Of a stretch of 64,000 nt of DNA, positions 11,462 to 52,500 are shown piece by piece. The stretch comes from Crossaster papposus (Eukaryota; Echinodermata; Asteroidea; Velatida; Solasteridae). The DNA is taken from positions 1,674,001 through 1,738,000 of the forward strand of contig JBAIAA010000028.1 in the NCBI GenBank assembly GCA_037893245.1, read 5' to 3'. The notes under the pieces were generated by a model that was not told the DNA's origin, made no database searches, and saw nothing but the letters and a program-made list of their open reading frames with translations. Each line of letters begins with the position of its first letter. The stretch's first letter is position 1. The position numbers and the translations under genes were made by a program.

Positions 11462-28220
<16,759 letters not shown>

Positions 28221-29430: not shown

Positions 29431-31387
29431 TTTTATTGGCCTATTTATGAGAAAACCTCCAGAAATGCATTTTTGTTGTAATTTTGTTGTGCATTTGTAT
29501 ACACATTGTACATACATGTATGCAGGTATAAATGATGTATGTAAATAAGGCTTTTTCTTGACAAAAATGTCTTAAAAAAATATCCTAACTTAAGAGCACC
29601 CATTACAATTTTTTAAAGACTGTAGATAACATCATGAACTAACTTTTGAGAAAATATTTCGAAATTTAAAGGCGACACATTTTCATAATTTATGGTCGAA
29701 TGACCTTTTGTAACATATTTTCTCTATGCTTTATGGTACGATTAAGATTTAATTTTATGAAACGAAAACCATTTGGAAGTCGTGCTAATTAGTTTAAAGT
29801 TCACTGGTCCGTATCTCAACAACGAACGAGCTAAATTTAAAAAAAAATCAGTTCTGGGCATTTTTCATATAGGCCAATCATAACACCAAATACCACTTCA
29901 ATCTGCACGGGTCGAATACAAAGTCACGTTGAATTGACACGAAATGACCCTATTAGTAAATCACAAATACTTGGTGATGTAGTGTGATGAAAAACCTGAA
30001 ATTTTGTTGAACATTGTTTAATCATAACCTTGTCTCGCAGGAGATGTCTGGAAAAGCTTTACGCAAAGGACAATTTTGCATCTTTTGAAACTCTAATTTC
30101 GTCGCTTTTTAAAGTACATGTAAGAATTAAATCGATTTGAATTGTACAAGTAATTTTAGATATGTAAGATGTCCGAAACAATTTTTTTTCCCAAGTGGAG
30201 CATGTAGTTTGCTATGGATTGTTTAAGGAGAGTGTCATTAGGCAAATGTCTTGACTAAATCCGAAAGTGCACCAGATTCCATTTAACAAATAAAATTCAG
30301 GTTTTTGAATAAAAAAAAAAAAGAGATGTATATTTACATAAAAGATACAAAACATTTGAAATGTATCACGTATTGTACACAATTTGTCAATTTTTGAATT
30401 GTGAAATTTATATGTTTTGAGGGTTTTGTTTTTTAAATTGTGTGGCCAACTTTTTTTCAGACCATTCTTAATTGACATCTGGCAAATCAGGATATCTGTG
30501 TTTCACACAAATACAAATGTAGTAAATATGTTGAAGCAGACATTAGCTGTAGCTGCAAATGACTACTGAAAATGTGGACAGAGGCAGCTGTATTTAAAAT
30601 GCAACGGTTGATTTTCTTGGTTCTACTAAAACTTTTATAGGTACATGTAATCTATTTTTCGGTAACTTTATTTTTTTTAATTGTTAGAAGTTGTTAATAT
30701 GTTTATTAATAATACAGGTTGGCAAGCGGATGACAATTTTATGTTTAATCATGTGAATTTTTGGAAGTACCTTCAACTTTTATTGTTTGTATCTGTGTAT
30801 ATTTACCATTTGCACATTATTTTGACTATGTACTGTTTTTTCCATTATGCTATGTAGATTTTGTTTGTTTGTGTAAACAGCTACTAACTTAGATGCTTTG
30901 AGCATTGGGCTTTAAATGCGATCATAAAAAAAATAGATTTGGAATAATTCTCTTAGCCTTAACAATCCTTATCCAGTCAAAATCCAACACCAGGTTTTGT
31001 TGGAATCTGTTAGGATGGGTACTGAACCCCTAAAGTAGTCGTCTTTTTAGGCATGCATCTCGAATCAATCCAACAGGTTGTGTGTACAGTTTGCCATATG
31101 GTGTTGGAATTTGCAAGGATGGGTATGGTTCCTATTAAAATACAGTAGGGAGTTAGGGTTAAAAGCCCCAAAGTTATTTTTTTTTCCTGCCCAAGGACAA
31201 ATTGATATTTTCTTTTTATAACATCATTTGTACACAGGCACACCATAATACAATTGGTTTGAGGAGCTACACAAAATCAGTCAAGCATTCGTAGCCCTAT
31301 CTTAAAACTTAAAACTAAAGAGCTGTAGACTTAACAATGAATCCATACATTTTTGCTGTAACTGTATGAAAATGTTGAAATTGCAAC
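29431..31387. other. Intergenic or ADSS 3' region, no gene seen
   Basis: AT-rich sequence with AATAAA-like hexamers (near 30287) and two loosely related GTTGGAATnTGnnAGGATGGGTA blocks at about 31000 and 31105, next to a TTAGGG-TTAA end at 31154-31162. No coding exon is supported. Confidence 0.4.
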
Positions 31388-31567
31388 ATCTTATTGTATC
31401 ATCTTATTGTATCATCTTATTGTATCATCTTATTGTATCATCTTATTGTATCATCTTATTGTATCATCTTATTGTATCATCTTATTGTATCATCTTATTG
31501 TATCATCTTATTGTATCATCTTAATGTATCATCTTAATGTATCATCTTAATGTATCATCTTATTGTA
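31388..31567 (+). repeat. Minisatellite, 13-bp unit x~14
   Basis: TATCATCTTATTG repeats perfectly for about ten units. Three units then carry TAATG instead of TATTG before the last returns to the first form. Confidence 0.95.
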
Positions 31568-31976
31568 TTATTTAATATCAGCCATCCACTTTACTTTTTT
31601 TTCAGAATTATGCTGTTGTTTTTGTTGGTAAAACTAAAAGTGCTTTGAAAAATATTGACTTGAAACTTGTTAAAGTGCAATTGTTTTGTCAACTGGAAAT
31701 TTAGTGAAACTTGGATGGCCCGGTTCATCAGGGCAACAAGGATAACCTAAAAACCAAACAGCTTTTGCACATTTATATTATTTTTTCCTTTTAAAAGTTT
31801 TCTTTATTGATCCTTTCCTTTATTTTGTCTTGATCCTAGTAGTCGTTACATAATGTTTGCTGTAAAATATAATGGATATGCATTTTAATTCATCGCCCTG
31901 ATGTATAGTTGGGATTGAAATAAATCGTGGGTTTGAAAATTAGACTGACAATTTGTTTCTCTTAATCAAAATCCCT

Positions 31977-32218
31977 AAAACCAGTTCGGGCCGGATGACG
32001 TATATAAACGCAAAGTTTTCCCTAGATTCAAAACGGATGACACATAAACACGCCACGAGCAAGGCCAGAAATGTCTGACGGCAGCGAGCAAGGCCGGAAA
32101 TGCGTGGGTGTGCTTCCCGGTACTATCCGCCTGAAGCCTCTTCGGATCGAGTTTCGTTAAAAATAATCCCGCGCGTCGGCTTAGTGATGTTAACATAATC
32201 CTGGCGCGAACTGGTTAA
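31977..32218 (+). mobile_element. CCAGTTCG-family element, copy 4
   Basis: CCAGTTCGGGCCGG at the left and GGCGCGAACTGG-TTAA at the right. The left flank reads TAAA where TTAA is expected. Confidence 0.85.
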
Positions 32219-33094
32219 CAAAAACCAGCTAAATATCAGTCAAAAACAACAAAAATCATCTAAAAATGTGCTTTGTAACCCTGTGTTTGTCGAGGAAGAA
32301 TTGTCATGCTAAGCATTAGGTTTTTGTTAGCATCTCCATGAAATTGGCCTCTGTTCTCTGCCGCAGCTCGAAATCAACGCAAAATGGTATATGTACATTG
32401 GAAATAAAAAGAGGTATAAAACGGGCGGCGCGCAGGTGGAGTACTGTCTTGTCCACGGTTTCTTGGAGACGGATGTACTGTGGTTAGCACACTCAGTGGG
32501 AATTGAATCTTTAGTCGGACCTACTACTAACAGGGTCGGACGCTTGAAATTAAAATTTTCTTAAATGTTTGTATTCATCCCGACAATAAACTTGGACACC
32601 AAAAAAAGTCGATGAAAAATGAGCATATAGACATATTAAGAATGTGCCATTGTGCCCCCTGTGTTCAAAATCCCGGCCGGCTGATGTCCACGCATTATGT
32701 TTTGCATAAAATCTGGTTAAGGAGTGACGTCACAGGTCAAATCGCCTTAGAACTTTGTGACCTGCGACGTCTCCTTAGCCAAATTTTACATTTAAATACA
32801 GTTAATTATAAACAGAGGGCACATCGTCTATAACTCAACTCATAAGCTGTTGTGAAAGGCTGGGTAAAGTTGACAAAGTAATAACAAATAGCATCATTGC
32901 TAAAATACTGAATATTCATGACGCGAGGGGTCTAGAGACGCCCATTTTTTTACCCTAACCCATAGGGAAAATAAACTACGCCAGCGGCGGCGTTGAGTAT
33001 AATGGCTGCAAGTCGGGTACATTGCAAATAAAAAAAGAAGTAGAGAACGGGCGGAGGTTTAGGAAACTATATTCAGTTTTGTTTGCCTTCAGTT

Positions 33095-34591: not shown

Positions 34592-37500
34592 GTAAGTATC
34601 CCTTTTCACCTGTACTAGCTTGAGAATTCCAGCTCTAAACTTATGGCATGGCCTGCCCTGGCGATGCCGATGGCGTGCATGGGGAGTTTCGATGGCGTGA
34701 GAATCTCCCATTCGATCACCGAATCATGAACTAGTTTAAATTAGAGCTAGAATCGGCTTACATGCGTGTGCACCTAGTCAACTCGTACCCGAGTCAACTC
34801 GTACCCAATTCAACTCGTATCCGAGACAACTCGTACCCGAGACAACTCGTACCTGAGTGAGTCAACTCGTACCCGAGTCAAATCTGCCAAACTAGGGCAA
34901 CTCGTACTCCCCTGGCCCTAGTTCGGCAGATTAATTAATTTTCTTCCTCTTTTTACCATGTCCTGATCTAGGACTACATTTTAATGTTTTACTGTATTTT
35001 GTTTTATAATAATTCATTTGAATTTTTTTATTCATAATCTAGATAGATGACTGGTGTGCCCATACTGTAAATATGTCGGAGGGTTTGCGATAATAACATT
35101 TCCTATTCTGACAACGTGTACAAAATTGAAATAGTTACTAACATTTTACTTTTCACTTTTTACTTTTCATTTTTCAAATATTATCAAATTTATGTTGATG
35201 TAAGATTTTCTCACATTTCGGACGTTACAATATGGCAACTTTTGATGAGTTTTTCAGAACGCTGTCGCCGATTTTCTGCGGCCATTTTTCCATTTTTGTT
35301 GAAATGACCCCTAAGCAGGGTGCCCGCGGGGTTGAGTGTCATAAAAAATGATTAATTTCCAATAAAACTGATAGCAAAACTCAGTTTAAAAGGCTAGATG
35401 TCACGTTGAAGAGCTGTTGTTGGTGTGGACTGTGGAGGCCTTTTATACAATTAAAATTGATGGACTAGGCACCGAGAAAAGGGTTTTTGTAGCTCGTTAA
35501 CAAAACAAAACCCAAAAATCTTGGGTTTGTAGCATTTTTATGAAGGTATTAGTACCCGGGGATTTCTTCTCTAGTCTTAACCAGTTCGCGCCGGGATTAT
35601 TTTAACATCGCCGAGCCGACGGGCGGGATTATTTTTAACGAAACTCGATCCGAAGCGTGTTCAGGCCTATAGTGCTGGGTAGCACACCCACGCATTTCCG
35701 GCCTTGCGCGCTGCTGACATATATTTCCGAACTTGAACTTGGCGTATATATTCGTCATCCGTTTTGAATTTGGGGAAATTTTTGCGTTTATATTCGTCAT
35801 CCGGCGCGAACTGGTTAAACTCATAAATGGATTTATTAGCTTATTTTCTGTAAAAAAAAGTAAAAAATTCTAGCTAGATCAGTAGATGCACTTAAAAAAT
35901 AAATAAAAATTGGTCAGTTGGTGATGTCGCGATTTTAGCTAAGAGGTGGGTAGGGAGGGGGGGGGGGGGGGGGGGGGGAGGGAGGGGGGGGGGGGGGGGG
36001 GGGGTGGAGAAGGAGAAATGGGGATGGTGATTTCAATTTAAAAAAAATCTTAACATTGAACAGCTTTCTAAGACAGTATTGAGAATTGATATCAAGATTG
36101 TTAGGCCAAGGGATAAGGTCTAATAAAATAAATTTTTAATTGGATCACATAGAAGCTATGGTGCGATGATTCTTTATAATGTTTTGTTTGCTTCAGCGTG
36201 TTTTTCTTGGGGTGTAAGACCTAGTCAGACCCTTCTGCTGGATCTTCCAAAGAAAATGGTATTTTGTTTCAATTAAATGGTTGAAATGGCATTCCAATTA
36301 ATGTGGCTTCATGAATAAGGCCAAACAGAGGTACGTTCGTCTGTCGGACCAATGGTAGCATTAGATCCAGAGAATCAGGGTTTCACCAATTGCCTTTTCT
36401 TGTAAATTTGTTTTTTGTATTTCTCTAATCTAGAGCTTTAATTTGATGTATAATTTTGTCATGTTTCAAATGACATACATAGGCTACTGGTGACTGTACA
36501 AAGGTCTTTGTCCAACTAGCCAGGACTATTTCATCAAGAATATCTATTTATTTAATTGGATTTTTTGTTATCGATTTGTTATTTAATTTATATTTTTATT
36601 AAATTTTTTAACCAGTTCGCGCTGGGATTATATTAACATCGCCGATCCGAGGCGCGTGATTATTTGTAACTGATTATTTGTAAACAAGATCCGAGGCGGG
36701 TTCAGGCCGATGGTACCGGAAAGCAAACCCACGCATTCCGGCCTTGCTCGCTGCTGACAGACATTTCCGGCCTTGCTCGCTGGTGACAGACATTTCCGGC
36801 CTTGCTCGCTGCTGACAGACATTTCCGGCCTTGCTCTTGACTTGTCATCTGTTTTAAATCTGGGGAAAACTTTGCGTTTTTATATACGTCATCCGGCGCG
36901 AACTGGTTAATTACATGTATGTCTTTTTACTTGGTATTAATATATTTTGTATTCAATTGTGTTTTGGGGGATAGATTTTTTTACATTAACCTTTTTAGGG
37001 AAATTTTAGGGCAACTTTGGCAGATGGTTTATAAAATCTAGTTTGATGTTATTTTTAAAACAAATACAAAATACAAGTAAAACCATAAAATAAGAAATAT
37101 TGGGAAAAGTTTCAAAAGTTTCCCCCTGCGTGCCAAAATTATCCCATTTTACGGTAACATATTGACATCTTAAAAGTTTTTTCTTGGTCCTCTATGCTTT
37201 AAGATGCCGAAAGGCATTTTTTGACGACTAAAAGACAGTCTTTCCAACGACTAAAAGACGTCATTTGACGACATACATGTAAAGACGCGCTAATGTGTTT
37301 ATCGGATTGGGTTGACTAAGCCAAACCGATCTGACACATTAAACATATAAACCGAATAAATCAACCAAAACTTGCCAACACTTTTAATTGAAGTTTTGTT
37401 TCATCAATTTTATCTTAGAGGAAATCTGCCAAAGGGAAGGAGAAGAAGTTGAAGAGGAAAGTGGTAAAACAATTAGATAGGGTTAAAACAAAAATGAAGT

Positions 37501-40500: not shown

Positions 40501-43500
40501 TGTTTTCTGGGCTAAATATCACAATGTTATTATTGTTCATATGATTTTTCATAAGGTTTTAATATGATAACTGTGCCAGTAAGCAACTTGGTGAATTTGA
40601 AGCTCACCAATACTGACTACTTGATGATATCTGGAGACAGTGTAATGTGCGCACATTTATAGGGTCACAAAGTTGTCATTTTGGATAATTACTGTGTTCT
40701 CATAATTATTCAGTCACTTAATGCTTTAGCAAATGTTATTGAAGTAAGGATATTTAAGTAGAATCACCAAAATAAACTTTTCAAAAAATAAAAATAAAAT
40801 ATATACCCAAATATGGGAATAAACATATTACACAGCAGGGATTAACGATTTATGCAAATTAGACATATTTCCACCACTTGGATTTTTGTAGATTTTTAGT
40901 ATGTAAGTCTAGGAACCTTATAGAAGTGCACTGTGGTGAAAAACAATTTGTTGCAATTTGTTTGAGGTCAAAACTTATTTTTCCTGGACTATTCCTAAAT
41001 CCTGCAAAATCATACAAAACCTACTGGATTCGGAATAAATTAGGGAGTATTAAGGTTGCGATTAAATCTTATTTGCCTTTCAGGTTGAATGTGACGATAG
41101 AATGCTGTAGGAGGTCACGTATGGATGAGAAGATGCTGGACTGGGCCTTCAACCTCACCAAGAAAAACATGCAAACGCTGTAAGTGCATAGATTAGGTTC
41201 CAGACTTATCCGTAAAGCAAATCCTTAGTCACAAAAAGAATATCGAACATTTGCAATCATAAAAAAAATATAAAAAATACCAAATTATAAAATATCTTTA
41301 ACCCTAACTCCCTCACGGCTTTTACTAGAAAGTATCCTGAATCCGCCACAGTCCACCAATTTTGGTTTGCAAAACTGCTGGTGTCCTGAGTCCATCAGAC
41401 TCCACCAGTATGCATTCTGGAGATATCCTGAGTCCATTATAATCCACCAGCAAAAGTTTGATGGACTGTGACGGATTCAGGATACCTAGGTGGCATACAA
41501 AAAATTGCTGTGCGTTTCTCCATAGAGTCCATCACAGTCCATCACCTAAATTTCTGTATCCTGAATCCATCAAACTCCTGCAGTAACGCTAGGCTTAAAA
41601 TCCTCAATCCATCACACTCCTCCAGTTGTTCAATATGGAGGTATCCTGAATCCGCTAAAATCCTCCAAAACAGGAAATGGATTTTGATGGACTCGGGGTG
41701 GTTAGGGTTAATACTGGACTGTTGGTGAATCCCAGACAGTCTATTGCATCCTGTAAAATTATGATACCTGGTGTGCCGTCATTTTCAAGAAAAGTGGTAT
41801 TTTTATATCACTTTCCAATGGTGGTCGGCCGACCAGCTTTGGTTAAAACTGGCTTCTTTCAAATACTACCCCCAATTTACCATATTTATTTAGTACGCAT
41901 TTTGTTAGCAATCAATAAAAACGAATACAAGCCAACTAGACTGGTTTCCTGACCATACAATTCCCTAACTTCAAGAAGATGATTGTTTTTCTTGGTTTTT
42001 TCATCATCTACGAACACAAACCTTCAAACAAGTTGGTGTAATAATATTTGCTATACAATATTAACCCCCCAAATCCATCCATTTCTAAAAATCACAGCAA
42101 AAGCAAAAGATGCACGTTTCCTTTAAGAAGATAGGTAAGGAGCTAATGTAATCCACGTGTTGTTTTTATGCCTTAGATACGAGGAAAGCAAGAGTGGCTG
42201 GAGACCTAGAGATAAAAGAGACGAGATGACAGACGACCGGGCGTGGTACCTAATCGCCAGGAAAACTGATGATACGCCCGTTGGCTTGATTCACTTTCGT
42301 TTTGACATGGACTTTGACGATGAGGTTGTGTATTGGTGAGTGTTTAGCATGTTGTATGTGTAGGAGTGCTGTTATAAATGCTTAGCAGCAGTTTGGGCAT
42401 TGGGTCAATCTTAACCTTTTGATGCCGGTTTGACATGGACTTTGACGATGAGGTTGTGTATTGGTGAGTGTTTAGCATGTTGTATGTGTAGGAGTGGTGC
42501 GAAATACCGTACCCTCTGGAGACATGAACACAATGTGTACAATGGAGACAAAACGTCTCCGGAGGGTAAATTTCTATAGATGAATAGGTCTCCATTGGGA
42601 ATTTCACGAATTAGATTTTTGGATTTTACTTAAATTACTCAAAAACTAGGATTAGGATGTGGGTTAGTGTTTGGGTTAGGGTATAATATAGGGTATATTG
42701 GGTTGAAATTTCAACCCAGGACAAAAATTATGGTTAAAATGGGAGCATTTTGAAAAACGTGCTCGACTTTCTAACCATTTTGTACACGAGAACAAAGCCA
42801 TGTCTCCACAGTGATACAAAAATGCGAATTGATGCTGTTATAAATGCTTAGCAGCAGTTTGGGCATTGAGTCAATCTTAACCTCTTGATGCCGGTTTGAA
42901 ATGGACTTTGACGATGAGGTTGTGTAAACAGGCCTGGAATTACAAATTTTTTAGGGCAAGGCCACTTTGGCCTTGGAGTATTCAAAATTTGGGAGGGCAC
43001 CAAGGCCAGTAGAAAGGGCACCAAGGCCAAAATTTGAAAATAAAAAAGAAGTCCAATTTCTTGCATTTGGCAGCAGAGTGTTCTAGTTCACCTTTAACAG
43101 TCCGCTTCAAAACTCTCTTTTCGCGGCATTGTTACTCTATTAAATTCTTGTAGTTTAATCCGAAAAGTTTTGGACGGTGACGGGATTCATTCACTAAAAA
43201 CGTTTTTCTAGTCATGCGGTGCAACAATTCCACCAGAAGAGGGTGTTCAAACAACAGAGAGCGCCCTCTGTTGGTCAATGTTTTTTATTTTAGACTGGTC
43301 CCTTGTTTAAAGACGTCGGGTGTTCGTGTACAACGGGTGCCGAGAGAGTCGCGAATGCGTTGAACGTAAACAATTTACGCTAGTGCAACTTCCTTTGACT
43401 CGTTCGAGCGGATTGCGCTGGATATACATTAAAACACGTCACAAGCACAAGATGCATCGTAGGCTGAAAACTAACACAAGTAAATATTTAACTTTCATAA

Positions 43501-46500
43501 AAAGGGCACGACGGCCAACAGGGGTAAAGGGCACGACATTATGGCCGTGAAAAGGGTATTTTTTCGAGGGGCACCACGGCCAGTTGCAAGGGCATCGACG
43601 GCACTGGCCGTCGTGGCCGCCGTGTAATTCGAGGCCTGGGTGGGTGTTTAGCATGTTGTATGTGTAGGAGTGCTGTTATAAATGCTTAGCAGCAGTTTGG
43701 GCATTGGGTCAATCTTAACCCCTTGATGCCGGTTTGAAATGGACTTTGATGATGAGGTTGTGTATTGGTGAATGTTTAGTATGTTGTATGTGTAGTATGT
43801 TGTATGTGTAGGATTGCTGTTATAAATGCTTAGCAGCAGTTTGGGCATTGGGTCAATCTTAACCTCTTGATGCCGGTTTGAAATGGACTTTGACGATGAG
43901 GTTGTGTATTGGTGGGTGTTTAGCATGTTGTATGTGTAGGAGTGCTGTTATAAATGCTTAGCAGCAGTTTGGGCATTGGGTTCATCTTAACCTCTTGATG
44001 CCGGTTTGACATGGACTTTGACGATGAGGTTGTGTATTGGTGGGTGTTTAGCATGTTGTATGTGTAGGAGTGCTGTTATAAATGCTTAGCAGCAGTTTGG
44101 GCATTGGGTCAATCTTAACCTCTTGTTGCCGGTATGACATGGACTTTGACGATGAGGTTGTGTATTGGTGAGTGTTTAGCATGTTGTATGTGTAGGAGTG
44201 CTGTTATAAATGCTTAGCAGCAGTTTGGGCATTGGGTCAATCTTAACCTCTTGATGCCGGTTTGAAATGGGCTTTGACGATGAGGTTGTGTATTGGTGAG
44301 TGTTTAGCATGTTGTATGTGTAGGAGTGCTGTTATAAATGCTTAGCAGCAGTTTGGGCATTGGGTCAATCTTAACCCCTTGATGCCGGTATGACATGGAC
44401 TTTGACGATGAGGTTGTGTATTGGTGAGTGTTTAGCATGTTGTATGTGTAGGAGTGCTGTTATAAATGCTTAGCAGCAGTTTGGGCATTGGGTCAATCTT
44501 AACCTCTTGATGCCGGTTTGAAATGGGCTTTGACGATGAGGTTGTGTATTGGTGAGTGTTTAGCATGTTGTATGTGTAGGAGTGCTGTTATAAATGCTTA
44601 GCAGCAGTTTGGGCATTGGGTCAATCTTAACCCCTTGATGCCGGTATGACATGGACTTTGACGATGAGGTTGTGTATTGGTGGGTGTTTAGCATGTTGTA
44701 TGTGTAGGAGTGCTGTTATAAATGCTTGGCAGCAGTTTGGGCATTTGGTCAATCTTAACCCCTTGATGCCGGTTTGACATGGACTTTGACGATGAGGTTG
44801 TGTATTGGTGAGTGTTTAGCATGTTGTATGTGTAGGAGTGCTGTTATAAATGCTTGGCAGCAGTTTGGGCATTTGGTCAATCTTAACCCCTTGATGCCGG
44901 TTTGACATGGACTTTGACGATGAGGTTGTGTATTGGTGAGTGTTTAGCATGTTGTATGTGTAGGAGTGCTGTTATAAATGCTTGGCAGCAGTTTGGGCAT
45001 TGGGTCAATCTTAACCCCTTGATGCTGGTTTGACATGGACTTTGATGATGAGGTTGTGTATTGGTGAGTGTTTAGCATGTTGTATGTGTAGGAGTGCTGT
45101 TATAAATGCTTGGCAGCAGTTTGGGCATTTGGTCAATCTTAACCCCTTGATGCCGGTTTGACATGGACTTTGACGATGAGGTTGTGTATTGGTGAGTGTT
45201 TAGCATGTTGTATGTGTAGGAGTGCTGTTATAAATGCTTAGCAGCAGTTTGGGCATTGGGTCCATCTTAACCTCTTGTTGCCGGTATTAATTCCTCACTG
45301 CATCGGATTATATGCATGATGACTGCACAGCAGCCGTTGTCTAGCAGCTACACTGCACAATGAACCCGAGCATACACCCGTCACACAGGCCATGTTTTAT
45401 GGGGTAGCACAGCTGACATCTCTTTAAAATAGTTGTAATTTGGGTTCTGTTTGGTACCTAACTTTGGAATGTAATCTTTCTGAGGTTCAGGCTGAGCATG
45501 GTAGTTTAATAATGTGCATACAGAGGAGAACGTCCCATTTATCAAAATTAGTAGAGATTTTTCTGACGATGACTCTTTTATGTCCATGCAGTTACGAGAT
45601 TCAGCTAGTTGAGTCGGTCCGAAGGAAAGGTCTTGGCAAGTTCTTCATGCAAATTCTTTCTCTTCTAGCTCACAAGTAAGTTGTTTCATTATTACCTCCG
45701 CCAGGAGGTTATGCTTTTGCCGGTGTTTATTTGTTTGTTTATTGGGGTGTTTGTTTGTTTGTTTGTTAGCAGAATTACGGAAAAATTACCTAAGGGATTT
45801 TAACGAAATTTGGTGAGTAGATAACTTATTTGTCAAGGATGATTCCATTACATTTTCAGATTGATCTAGATCCAGATCAGGAATCTGGATCACTTTGAAT
45901 GATTTTTGTTAATGTTAAGCGTTGTACAAATCACGGTAAGTAAAAGCACCACTAAGCGGTGAAACGCCATTTTCTCCGGTTAAAGCACATTATTTTGCGG
46001 TTGTGGCAGAGGTCTGCGCTCTGTCGAGTGCCCTTTTTCCAGTTATTGAACGTGAACGTGACCTCCAAAAAGTCACAAAGCTAATTTTTAATGATGGCTG
46101 AATCTACACTAGGCTAGGTGCTTTTTTCCCCTGGAGATAATGAGTTCTTTGTGCATGGCTTTTTCATGACCATGAGTCAAATAGCTGTGCCGAATATGCC
46201 AATTATTTGAATATCCGACTGGAATAAGGCATTGCATTACCACAGGTACTGGTATGCATCCAAGATGTTATACAAATATCGCATGGTTTGAGGGGAAGTA
46301 GTGGGAATTACTGGTCCCGTGGTGTAGGTCAGCTCGACTACCTCCAGACGCGAAGCGGAGGAAGGTAGTCCAGCTGACCTACACCGAGGGACCAGTAATT
46401 CCCACCGTTTTCCAGAAATAAACCATGCTGTATTTGTTTTACTACACCTCATAGATATTCACTGCCTTGTTGATAAAGGCCGTCGTAGATTTTGCATCTT

Positions 46501-49500: not shown

Positions 49501-52500
49501 AAATGTTTTTGTAGAACCTAAACAAATAGATGGATTGAATTTTGAAAGTGTACTCTAAATGCAATGCGTATGTTCTACTTGCGCATTGCATTTAGAATAC
49601 ACATTTCCAAAATTCAATCCATCTATTTTTAACAACTTTCCTCGTCATGACGGTTAAAAAAACGTCACGGCAAAATCATCTGCAGCGGATACGCGCACGT
49701 ATTAAAACAAAAATTAAAAACGCTTATTTGCTGTTCAAGCGATTCAGTTTTGGGCGCATCGGCTTCGGTAACGCACTGTATAGAATACAAACACAGATAT
49801 GCAAATAGTCGTACAAAAGCCGTACAAAATGTTACAATCCTTCTTTATCAACACAAATTGTTTGCAGTTGCTCAATATCAGAGGGCAATGACCATCCATT
49901 GTAAGGTTGGGGCATTACACTTTTGCTGATGCAGACGGAAAAAACATCTGTGCCCTAATGACTTAAACAAAACTAGCTACAAAGCCTCTCAAGCTAATCC
50001 ATCCAAGACCGATTCTTGACTTGTTAGAGTGCGTCCTATTTCCCTTGATAATTCTCGTTGAAAGATCAGCACAGCTTGGAAATTATGCGATAATTCTTGA
50101 CTATTATCTGACAGCGCCCCTAGAGTTTTGAAGCATTGGCTCGGAGGACGGTGCCTCAAATCTCTTGAGTCCAGATGTCATTAGAAAAAACTCAATGCAT
50201 GGGCAGCCTAAGTCGGATTTATTTCTTCAAGTCAACAAACTGTCTGTCTATTGTCTGTTTGTTTCTGTCATAGCCACTGTTATTAACCCTTTAAACTCAG
50301 GCCTGTTTTCGAAGAATTTGTACCTGTTGCTAGTTTGTATATATACAAATATCATTTACAGTGTACAAATCCCACATAATTATGTAATTTATGCAAAAGA
50401 CGCGTAGACACGTCGAGAGTGAGACAGTGGCAGCAGCGATGGTGGGTAAAAATGCATTAAAATCCTTTGTAAATAAGTAAATTTATTAAATAAACTCGCA
50501 GACTGTGCGATCAGTATCTATCTTTGTAAAAAATGGCAGGACTACGGTTTTAGGAGAGATTTAGGAAAACATTGTTGGGCGAAAACGATATTTTTGTTTC
50601 CACATGAATTCCAGCGGGATTTTTTTATATTGTGGTCCTATCCGTCATTTTATCTGAAAGAAAAACTGGGATATTTTGAAAGAACAGTAGATTTATAGAA
50701 TCAGTTGGTCTAGGATACCCTTACAATATGATTGAATTCCACAATACAGGTATTTTCAGACCAATTTTGTACCCGTTCCATGAAGACTGTCCCGTTGACT
50801 TGCACGTCAAACAGTTCATGGTGGTAATTTGTGTACACATTCGTACACAACATATTGTGTAATGAACTATTTGACGTGCATAAATATGAATTATTTTGGG
50901 GAATATTTGGACCCCCAGGAGCTTTTAAGGGACTTATAAGTCAGAGTGCAAAGGGTTAAAGCCCGCTGAGTGCACTCAACCAGTTCGCGCCGGGATTATT
51001 TTAACAACGCCGAGCCGACGGCCGGGATTATTTTTAACGAAACACGATCCGAAGCGTGTGCCGGGAAGCACACCCACGCATTTCCGGCCTTGCGCGCTGC
51101 TGACATACATTTCCGAACTTGAACTTGGCGTGTTTATGCGTCATCCGTTTTGAATTTTGGGAAATGTGTGCGTTTATATACGTCATCCGGCGCGAACTGG
51201 TTAAGAACTACAATGTTTGTGCCGAGGAAAAGGTCATTAGAGGCTATTTGCTCGCCACATAGCTCACTGTGTGCGGTGTGAACTTTTGCCTGAGTTTTCT
51301 GCTTCGCGAGACCATGAGACAAAAATCTGTCATGTTTGATTTCTTTCACATCGCGAGGCCAAAAACTCGCGTGTTTGGTGAACTTGAGCTACGTGTTAAG
51401 CAAAAAAGAAAATTAACAAGCCAATGAACGTACTCTTATTCTGGTCACGTGATTTCAAAAGGATTTGTTTTAGCTCGGAACATACCTCATCAGGTTTAGC
51501 CTCTGCATGTAGCTCTCGTGTGCAGCAGGCTTTAAGCTGTAGGGGGGTGGGGGGGGGGGGGGGGGTTCACATTTCTGGATCTGACTTAGTATTTTCTATC
51601 TATTCAAATTATTATTATTTTTTTTTACTGTCAGTACGTTATGAAATACTTGTAAGTATAAACAATATGAAATGAGACATTAAATAAGAAAATATGAATT
51701 GATGAACATAAAGTATCAAATAATTGTAAAAAAAATTAACAAAAGTAAAATACAACCATGCAGCTATTGTCGTGTTCCAGGAAGAAGGTTGTTAGGGTAA
51801 AAGAATGGTTCAAAAGGCAAACAAATTGTGTTTTTTGTGTCATTCAAGCATGTGAGACTTCCGCGTTTCTGCGGTTTTCCGTGTCTTTAATTTGCCAACT
51901 CTTTTTTTTCGTGACTTTGCGTTTTTTGTTTTTCCTAACATCATCGCATGTTTGACATGCAGTTTAGTCAATTTGAAAAAAAAAAAAATTGCTATCTTTA
52001 TACTCAATTATCATTGCCCACTCTACGCATAGAGCTATATGTAGAGCACATCTAATGGCCTCACAGTGTACTGATCATTGATGTTAACATGTAATACAAA
52101 TGTTACCAAACATGCTCAAAGTGCGTTCACCTCCCTACCTCAGTGGGACGTTAATGCACTTGGAGCCAAGTTTATTCCCAAATAAATGTCCTTAGGATTT
52201 GAGATGCTGCTTTAGCTTACGTTAAAGACCAATAGAATTTCTGGCAAAAGGATAATTATAAAAATGCACAGTATTATTAGAATTATCAACAAATTTCACA
52301 AATTTCAGCCTCGTCTGATTTTTTTTAAATACAAAAATGAAATTTCTTTTATCTCCAAAAGGAATTTGTGTGTGCCATTTTTGTGTAGCACAAGGCGAAA
52401 TGTCGTCCTACTTGTGTGCAAGATATGTCAAATGTTGTCGAGATTGCCAAATGTTTTCTCTGTTTGTTTTGCATAATATAAGCAGCTTTCATACTCCTGG

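Follow-up and report, generated by a model that had tools for sequence, protein, structure and literature searches.

Duplication of the exon 5–intron 5 boundary of NAA40 as a minisatellite array in the starfish Crossaster papposus

Results

The exon 5–intron 5 boundary of NAA40 is tandemly repeated

We analysed a stretch of 64,000 nt from the starfish Crossaster papposus (assembly GCA_037893245.1, contig JBAIAA010000028.1, positions 1,674,001 to 1,738,000 of the forward strand; hereafter the window), in which intron 5 of a gene matching NAA40 carries a tandem array built from the end of the preceding exon and its 5' splice site (donor). This array is a "mirage", that is, a minisatellite with units running across an exon-intron border, a class described from amphioxus (PMC3087553). 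Tandem units cross the boundary in 15 copies. Besides the one in the real exon, intron 5 holds 14 instances of the exon tail (TTTGACATGGACTTTGACGATGAGGTTGTGTATTG or a close variant). The original prediction, made from the letters of the window, had claimed an amplification of about 14-fold in the intron following exon 5 of NAA40, and both the copy number and the gene identity were confirmed. Its interpretation stood in part; it lacked the transposon terminus at the end of the unit, the two transposons that interrupt the array and the published class of amphioxus mirages. We consider it highly likely that the array is a neutral mirage under turnover, whose decoy donors are ignored since exon definition favours the first donor.

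The joined translation of exons 5–7 (107 amino acids; exon numbering follows the original prediction) matched five PDB sequences named N-alpha-acetyltransferase 40 with E values of 1.6e-40 to 5e-40, and the same region matched the GNAT family in Pfam. By homology, the host gene is NAA40. Intron 4 is 997 nt long and intron 5 (42336-45591) 3,256 nt. The features of the gene and the array are as follows.

42177..42335, + strand: NAA40 exon 5, 159 nt, ending in phase 2; its frame joins exon 6 and its translation matches NAA40 chains
42301..45284, + strand: 128-bp minisatellite array with 15 exon-tail copies (1 genuine and 14 intronic), from Tandem Repeats Finder (TRF) and the unit register
42301..42335, + strand: exonic part of the repeat unit, the 35-nt tail of exon 5 (FDMDFDDEVVY plus 2 nt), from the unit alignment
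42336..42341, + strand: genuine 5' splice site, TTG/GTGAGT (slash at the junction), with U1 pairing predicted at −11.1 kcal/mol; among all 15 donors only this one preserves the frame
43772..43811, + strand: 16-bp internal tandem duplication, which makes its unit 144 instead of 128 bp, from TRF and the unit register
44090..44167, + strand: the only stop-free 78-nt pseudoexon of 14, which would add 26 codons in frame, from the frame computation
45592..45675, + strand: NAA40 exon 6, the next genuine exon after exon 5, from the frame analysis

TRF reported the 128-bp period at 43789-45285 (11.7 copies, 96% matches, score 2756), and matching of the exon tail carried the array leftward, via two interrupted units, up to exon 5 itself. 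The exon-tail copies start at 42301, 42429, 42895, 43733 and 43877, and then at each 128 bp until 45157. Each unit consists of 35 nt of exonic and 93 nt of intronic sequence, including the donor, and the last unit ends at 45284. Thus, the predicted unit length of 128 bp was right, while its division into about 37 exonic and 85 intronic bases had to be revised. Similarly, the predicted extent of 42299-45290 was sustained with slightly different ends (42301-45284), but the array is discontinuous, being broken by dispersed transposons at about 42497-42834 and 42927-43638.

We searched the genome (1.02 Gb; the window sits on contig C28) for other instances, with match counts that are lower bounds. 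The array unit was located at the NAA40 locus only (at least 17 matches, all on C28). The full exon 5 was found once genome-wide among the best 40 of 2,432 candidates scored, and no haplotig or second allele of the locus appeared among these scored candidates.

Most of the copied donors are predicted to be as strong as the genuine one

Among the 14 intronic copies, the donor hexamer is GTGAGT in nine, GTGGGT in four and GTGAAT in one; a transposon lies between the GTGGGT at 43640 and its exon tail. The TTG/GT junction is kept in 13 of the 14, so that splice signals are retained in most units, as the original prediction had stated for the full donor. We computed the pairing of these donors with the 5' end of U1, leaving the transposon-split donor unscored at its shifted place. 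The real donor and the nine GTGAGT copies are predicted to pair at the same −11.1 kcal/mol, three GTGGGT copies at −10.3 and GTGAAT at −5.4. The view of the array as a ladder of near-identical donors therefore agrees with the predicted pairing.

From the frame computation, we observed that splicing from any of the 14 downstream donor places would give TGG TGA at the exon border, where the TGA overlaps the first donor. An in-frame stop after downstream donor use had been anticipated, correctly at all 14 places, but the first stop is this donor-overlapping TGA and not a later one in TTTAG. Considered as a functional alternative 5' splice site cassette, the array has donors that vary among copies, each downstream place yielding a stop.

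Units vary equally in their exonic and intronic parts

The 15 units differ pairwise by 3.5% on average (range 0–7.8%). For the unit alignments, divergence and permutations, units 2 and 3 entered without their transposons, columns arising from insertions were excluded, and cells holding a gap or N were ignored. Variable sites make up 4 of 35 exonic and 13 of 93 intronic positions (Fisher P = 1), and three of the four variants in the exonic part would alter an amino acid (Phe/Tyr, Asp/Glu and Asp/Gly). As the two parts are equally variable, the copies give no indication of coding constraint; the equal conservation of both parts and the lack of selection on the coding part were both foreseen in the original prediction.

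We observed a duplicated 256-bp dimer, in which the units at 44133 and 44261 are identical to those at 44389 and 44517, respectively, and similarity between units two apart was higher than expected (lag 2, P = 0.02 by permutation). Homogenisation of the units is visible but not strong. The amplification itself is supported, but the proposal that it was recent needs qualifying, because the mean divergence is 3.5% and exchange between units would reset the clock.

The repeat unit ends within a transposon terminus

The right end of the unit lies inside the terminus of a miniature inverted-repeat transposable element (MITE), and two further elements lie within the array (no strand assigned).

45267..45418: right-truncated TTAA/piggyBac-like MITE, aligned to dispersed copies; the last unit of the array ends with the leading 18 bp of this element, including the TTAA
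42497..42834 (about): dispersed transposable element of 338 bp within the first intronic unit, from genome matches
42927..43638 (about): dispersed element of 712 bp with ends CAGGCCTGG/CGAGGCCTG, splitting the exon tail from the donor of the second intronic unit, from genome matches

The TTAA of the MITE at 45267 stands 75 nt past the last donor. We fetched 30 loci of this family (from the best 40 of 1,900 candidates scored) and obtained a consensus of ∼210 bp with ends TTAACCCCTTGACGCCGG...GTCAAGGGGTTAA. Of the 30 loci, 28 have TTAA on the left, and the family has the TTAA, the inverted ends and the short length of piggyBac-like MITEs. An exact search found the right end in 10 loci, giving lengths of 209–211 bp in eight, 228 bp in one and 186 bp in one, and no clear right end in the other 20, the NAA40 locus among them. 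The NAA40 piece shares 131 of 149 positions (88%) with the majority consensus, and the other 29 copies share 88–95% (mean 91%); over the full alignment, with flanks and the absent end counted, the NAA40 figure is 154 of 228.

The MITE is present at many loci without the NAA40 array, and besides 45267 its first 19–21 nt also match within the units of the array. At the unit junction, the MITE sequence ...GCCGGT is joined to the exonic TTTGACATGG, with about one shared base. Three units carry GGTATGAC at the junction and the remaining units GGTTTGAC; as the units are split between these forms, either may be the original. The presence of the first 18 bp of the MITE in every unit indicates that the MITE is older than the array, and for this order of events we also used the divergence of the MITE piece from the family consensus (12%) against the mean of 3.5% between units.

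A general role of this MITE family as a seed of arrays was not supported, as only the NAA40 locus, one of the 30 fetched, has an array breakpoint in the MITE end. With periods below 30 filtered out, TRF arrays were found at four of these loci: L050, L051 (the NAA40 locus), L067 and L069. At L067 (about 927-1889) the whole MITE lies within a two-copy 447-bp tandem duplication with ∼86% identity between copies, and at L050 and L069 the arrays adjoin the MITE. In self-comparison, L057 and L067 showed short-period arrays several hundred bp away from it.

The piggyBac transposase domain (PF13843) gave 116 matches in the genome, of which 112 are stop-free and many have equal scores, which suggests recent or present activity of these transposases. 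Another element of the TTAA type, with ends resembling CCAGTTCGCGCCGG, was recognised by eye in several copies at approximately 31979-32219, 35580-35818, 36611-36910 and 50960-51206 of the window; one copy holds an internal 29-bp tandem repeat (36736-36836).

The two inserts lie within units and are therefore younger than the array or, at a minimum, than its earliest units. For the 338-bp element we found 39 siblings of 96–99% identity (best 40 of 1,869 candidates, itself included). For the 712-bp element, 38 siblings were 95–99% and one was 92% identical (best 40 of 792 candidates, itself included), and no target-site duplication was seen at the NAA40 copy. As these sibling lists hold the closest copies, the identities are evidence only for the presence of young members in both families.

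Other features of the window and the genome

A second array in the window, with a 143-bp unit in 6 copies (25103-25953) that also begins with CCCCTTGCG, was set aside as a parallel case. It has no TTAA directly before the CCCCTTGCG motif, and no exon boundary was recognised there by eye. It adjoins a Pao/BEL retrotransposon remnant (Peptidase_A17, E 8.5e-16, open reading frame 26122-26373). The window also holds a tRNA match at 24131-24204 (− strand; 44.9 bits, above the Rfam gathering score), either a gene or a short interspersed nuclear element, and a 13-bp CATCTTATTGTAT minisatellite of 14 copies at 31387-31568.

Elsewhere in the assembly, contig C8 (>5 Mb; loci L075, L077 and L078) has uninterrupted cytochrome oxidase open reading frames of 682, 274 and 331 amino acids and holds 10 of the 19 adh_short matches; it is probably a bacterial symbiont or an assembly contaminant. 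Contigs C701, C282 and C359 have kinase-like open reading frames of equal score every ∼6.7 kb, apparently a large tandem array. When five genetic codes were applied to mitochondrial COX1, the echinoderm code (AAA = Asn, ATA = Ile, AGA = Ser, TGA = Trp) yielded the expected conserved residues; these readings are shared by the flatworm code, which was not among the five. Between 12S and COX1, open reading frames identified by eye as ND1 and ND2 lie on the strand opposite to COX1, and this order of tRNAs and reading frames is that of sea stars. Both mitochondrial features fit an echinoderm, probably a sea star.

Discussion

Origin of the array and choice of the donor

We propose the following course of events. 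A TTAA-type MITE would have inserted in intron 5, 75 bp past exon 5. A break or replication error would then have joined the interior of the MITE, about 18–20 bp in, to a point 35 bp before the end of the exon, giving a 128-bp tandem duplication with about 1 bp of shared sequence at the join. Unequal exchange would have raised this to 15 units with partial homogenisation, and two other transposons would have inserted in the array.

Exon 5 would be recognised across the exon, because the introns on either side are long (997 and 3,256 nt), and its acceptor would pair with the nearest donor, which is the genuine one. The 14 decoys would leave with the intron. Any slip to a decoy would produce the same early TGA and presumably removal of the transcript by nonsense-mediated decay. 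Published data agree with such a choice: in introns longer than ∼250 nt with near-equal donors the upstream donor is favoured, and with two identical strong donors in long introns it was used exclusively in five of five minigenes (PMC9225289). The reading frame points to the first donor as the one likely to be used, and the array is most likely neutral and removed whole by splicing. A function of its own finds no support in its sequence.

Several points weigh against this explanation. The use of the first donor is read from the frame and homology only. The exon-definition rule rests on human data and on cells in which two donors, instead of fifteen, compete. Before the filter for equal strength, the downstream donor was preferred in ∼60% of human events, and for minigenes with a weakened donor a figure legend names downstream use and exon skipping too, so that the results are less clear-cut there and argue against reading the rule simply (PMC9225289). 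The MITE end at the unit border may be a bystander, given the single breakpoint among the fetched loci. The Phe/Tyr variant sits at the duplication junction and may be MITE-derived instead of a later mutation. Homogenisation is weak with distance (lag 1, P = 0.13; Mantel r = 0.16, P = 0.09).

Three other explanations were weighed. The decoys might act as a splicing rheostat, diverting a copy-number-dependent share of NAA40 pre-mRNA to a degraded early-stop form, so that array length tunes output. For 12 of the 14 decoys the predicted U1 pairing equals or comes close to that of the genuine donor, every downstream place yields the same early stop, and in short-intron contexts donors nearer the acceptor are favoured (PMC9225289). 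However, the donors vary freely (GTGGGT, GTGAAT and one split by a transposon), and both the exon-definition rule and reverse transcription PCR (RT-PCR) in amphioxus predict little effect (PMC9225289, PMC3087553), which makes a rheostat decidedly unlikely in our view. Mis-assembly of a short tandem duplication might have produced some or all of the array; there is a precedent in an amphioxus mirage whose assembly in the draft genome was aberrant (PMC3087553). The distinct unit variants, the 16-bp duplication and the two transposons in different units would be hard to obtain by mis-assembling one copy, and we regard an artefact as very unlikely; even so, the unit number may be off.

The array could also be an intron or exon in the making, in which the TTAG of a unit serves as acceptor and the next donor closes a symmetrical 78-nt exon adding 26 residues. 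When pseudoexons were computed from the AG-type acceptor of one unit to the donor of the next, all 14 were 78 nt long and kept the phase, and the one at 44090-44167 has an open frame. Mirages have also been proposed as a source of new introns (PMC3087553). But 13 of the 14 hold an in-frame stop, the AG is missing in four, one donor place lies inside a transposon, no clear pyrimidine tract was seen by eye at the acceptor, and no insertion interrupts the aligned NAA40 chain at the corresponding place. Taken together, an exon in the making is most improbable. The neutral mirage with ignored decoys remains our preferred explanation.

The array offers a natural competing-donor experiment, in which one acceptor faces a genuine donor and its 14 copies; 12 of these are predicted to be nearly equal to it, and most copies are spaced by 128 nt. 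Misuse of the decoys would be easy to read in NAA40, so the array is a natural test of splice-site choice. A broader idea is that mirages occur deuterostome-wide, seeded by transposon termini near splice sites, and that more than a dozen equal donors are tolerated in a conserved gene as exon definition ranks them strictly by distance from the upstream acceptor. We consider this unlikely; if it were true, the length of the array would act back on the amount of NAA40 mRNA via leak to the decoys.

Comparison with known systems

The globin mirages of amphioxus are minisatellite-like duplications of intron-exon boundaries, reported after earlier cases in Adh3, whose original description (Canestro et al. 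2002) and somatic instability are cited there (PMC3087553). Their units range from 10–72 bp up to 150–160 bp, and BflGb6 has two haplotypes with 6 and 3 units (PMC3087553). Further mirages are those of PGBD5 (60 and 108 bp), with troponin C also cited (PMC3902484). RT-PCR suggests that amphioxus mirages leave splicing undisturbed, and normal splicing is reported (PMC3087553, PMC3902484). The NAA40 array shares with them the boundary-spanning tandem units (150–160 bp long in BflGb6, 157 in BflGb9, 60/108 in PGBD5), the splice signals in many of these and, probably, the turnover of units. It differs in lying in an echinoderm and not a cephalochordate; in the number of extra units, which is 14 in NAA40, where the two BflGb6 haplotypes have 6 and 3 and PGBD5 has no more than 7; in repeating a donor, whereas BflGb6 repeats an acceptor; and in a unit that ends in a MITE terminus and an array interrupted by transposons.

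In human segmental duplications, variable internal tandem repeats occur at exon-intron boundaries, with 27 intron modifications (PMC2812944). There, too, minisatellite expansion at the boundary is able to alter gene structure, in units of ∼30 bp with 4 copies on average, in recent paralogues and with RNA-supported altered structures (PMC2812944). NAA40, in contrast, is a conserved gene at one locus.

A tandem-duplication model of intron gain has reportedly been put forward for the potato RdRp case. The likeness lies in a tandem duplication tied to splice signals; in NAA40 an existing intron was lengthened, and no new intron is shown. In the antifreeze glycoprotein gene of Antarctic fish, a short segment straddling an intron-exon junction was amplified and the repeats became coding, whereas those of NAA40 would stay intronic.

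Our literature search, made mostly without subscription papers, found mirages described for amphioxus only and none for echinoderms among the papers that it listed. The NAA40 array thus appears to be a mirage outside cephalochordates with its founding breakpoint in a MITE end, striking but of a kind already known. Its founding duplication would have had a breakpoint inside a transposon end, where the amphioxus globin paper calls the mechanism of mirages unclear (PMC3087553).

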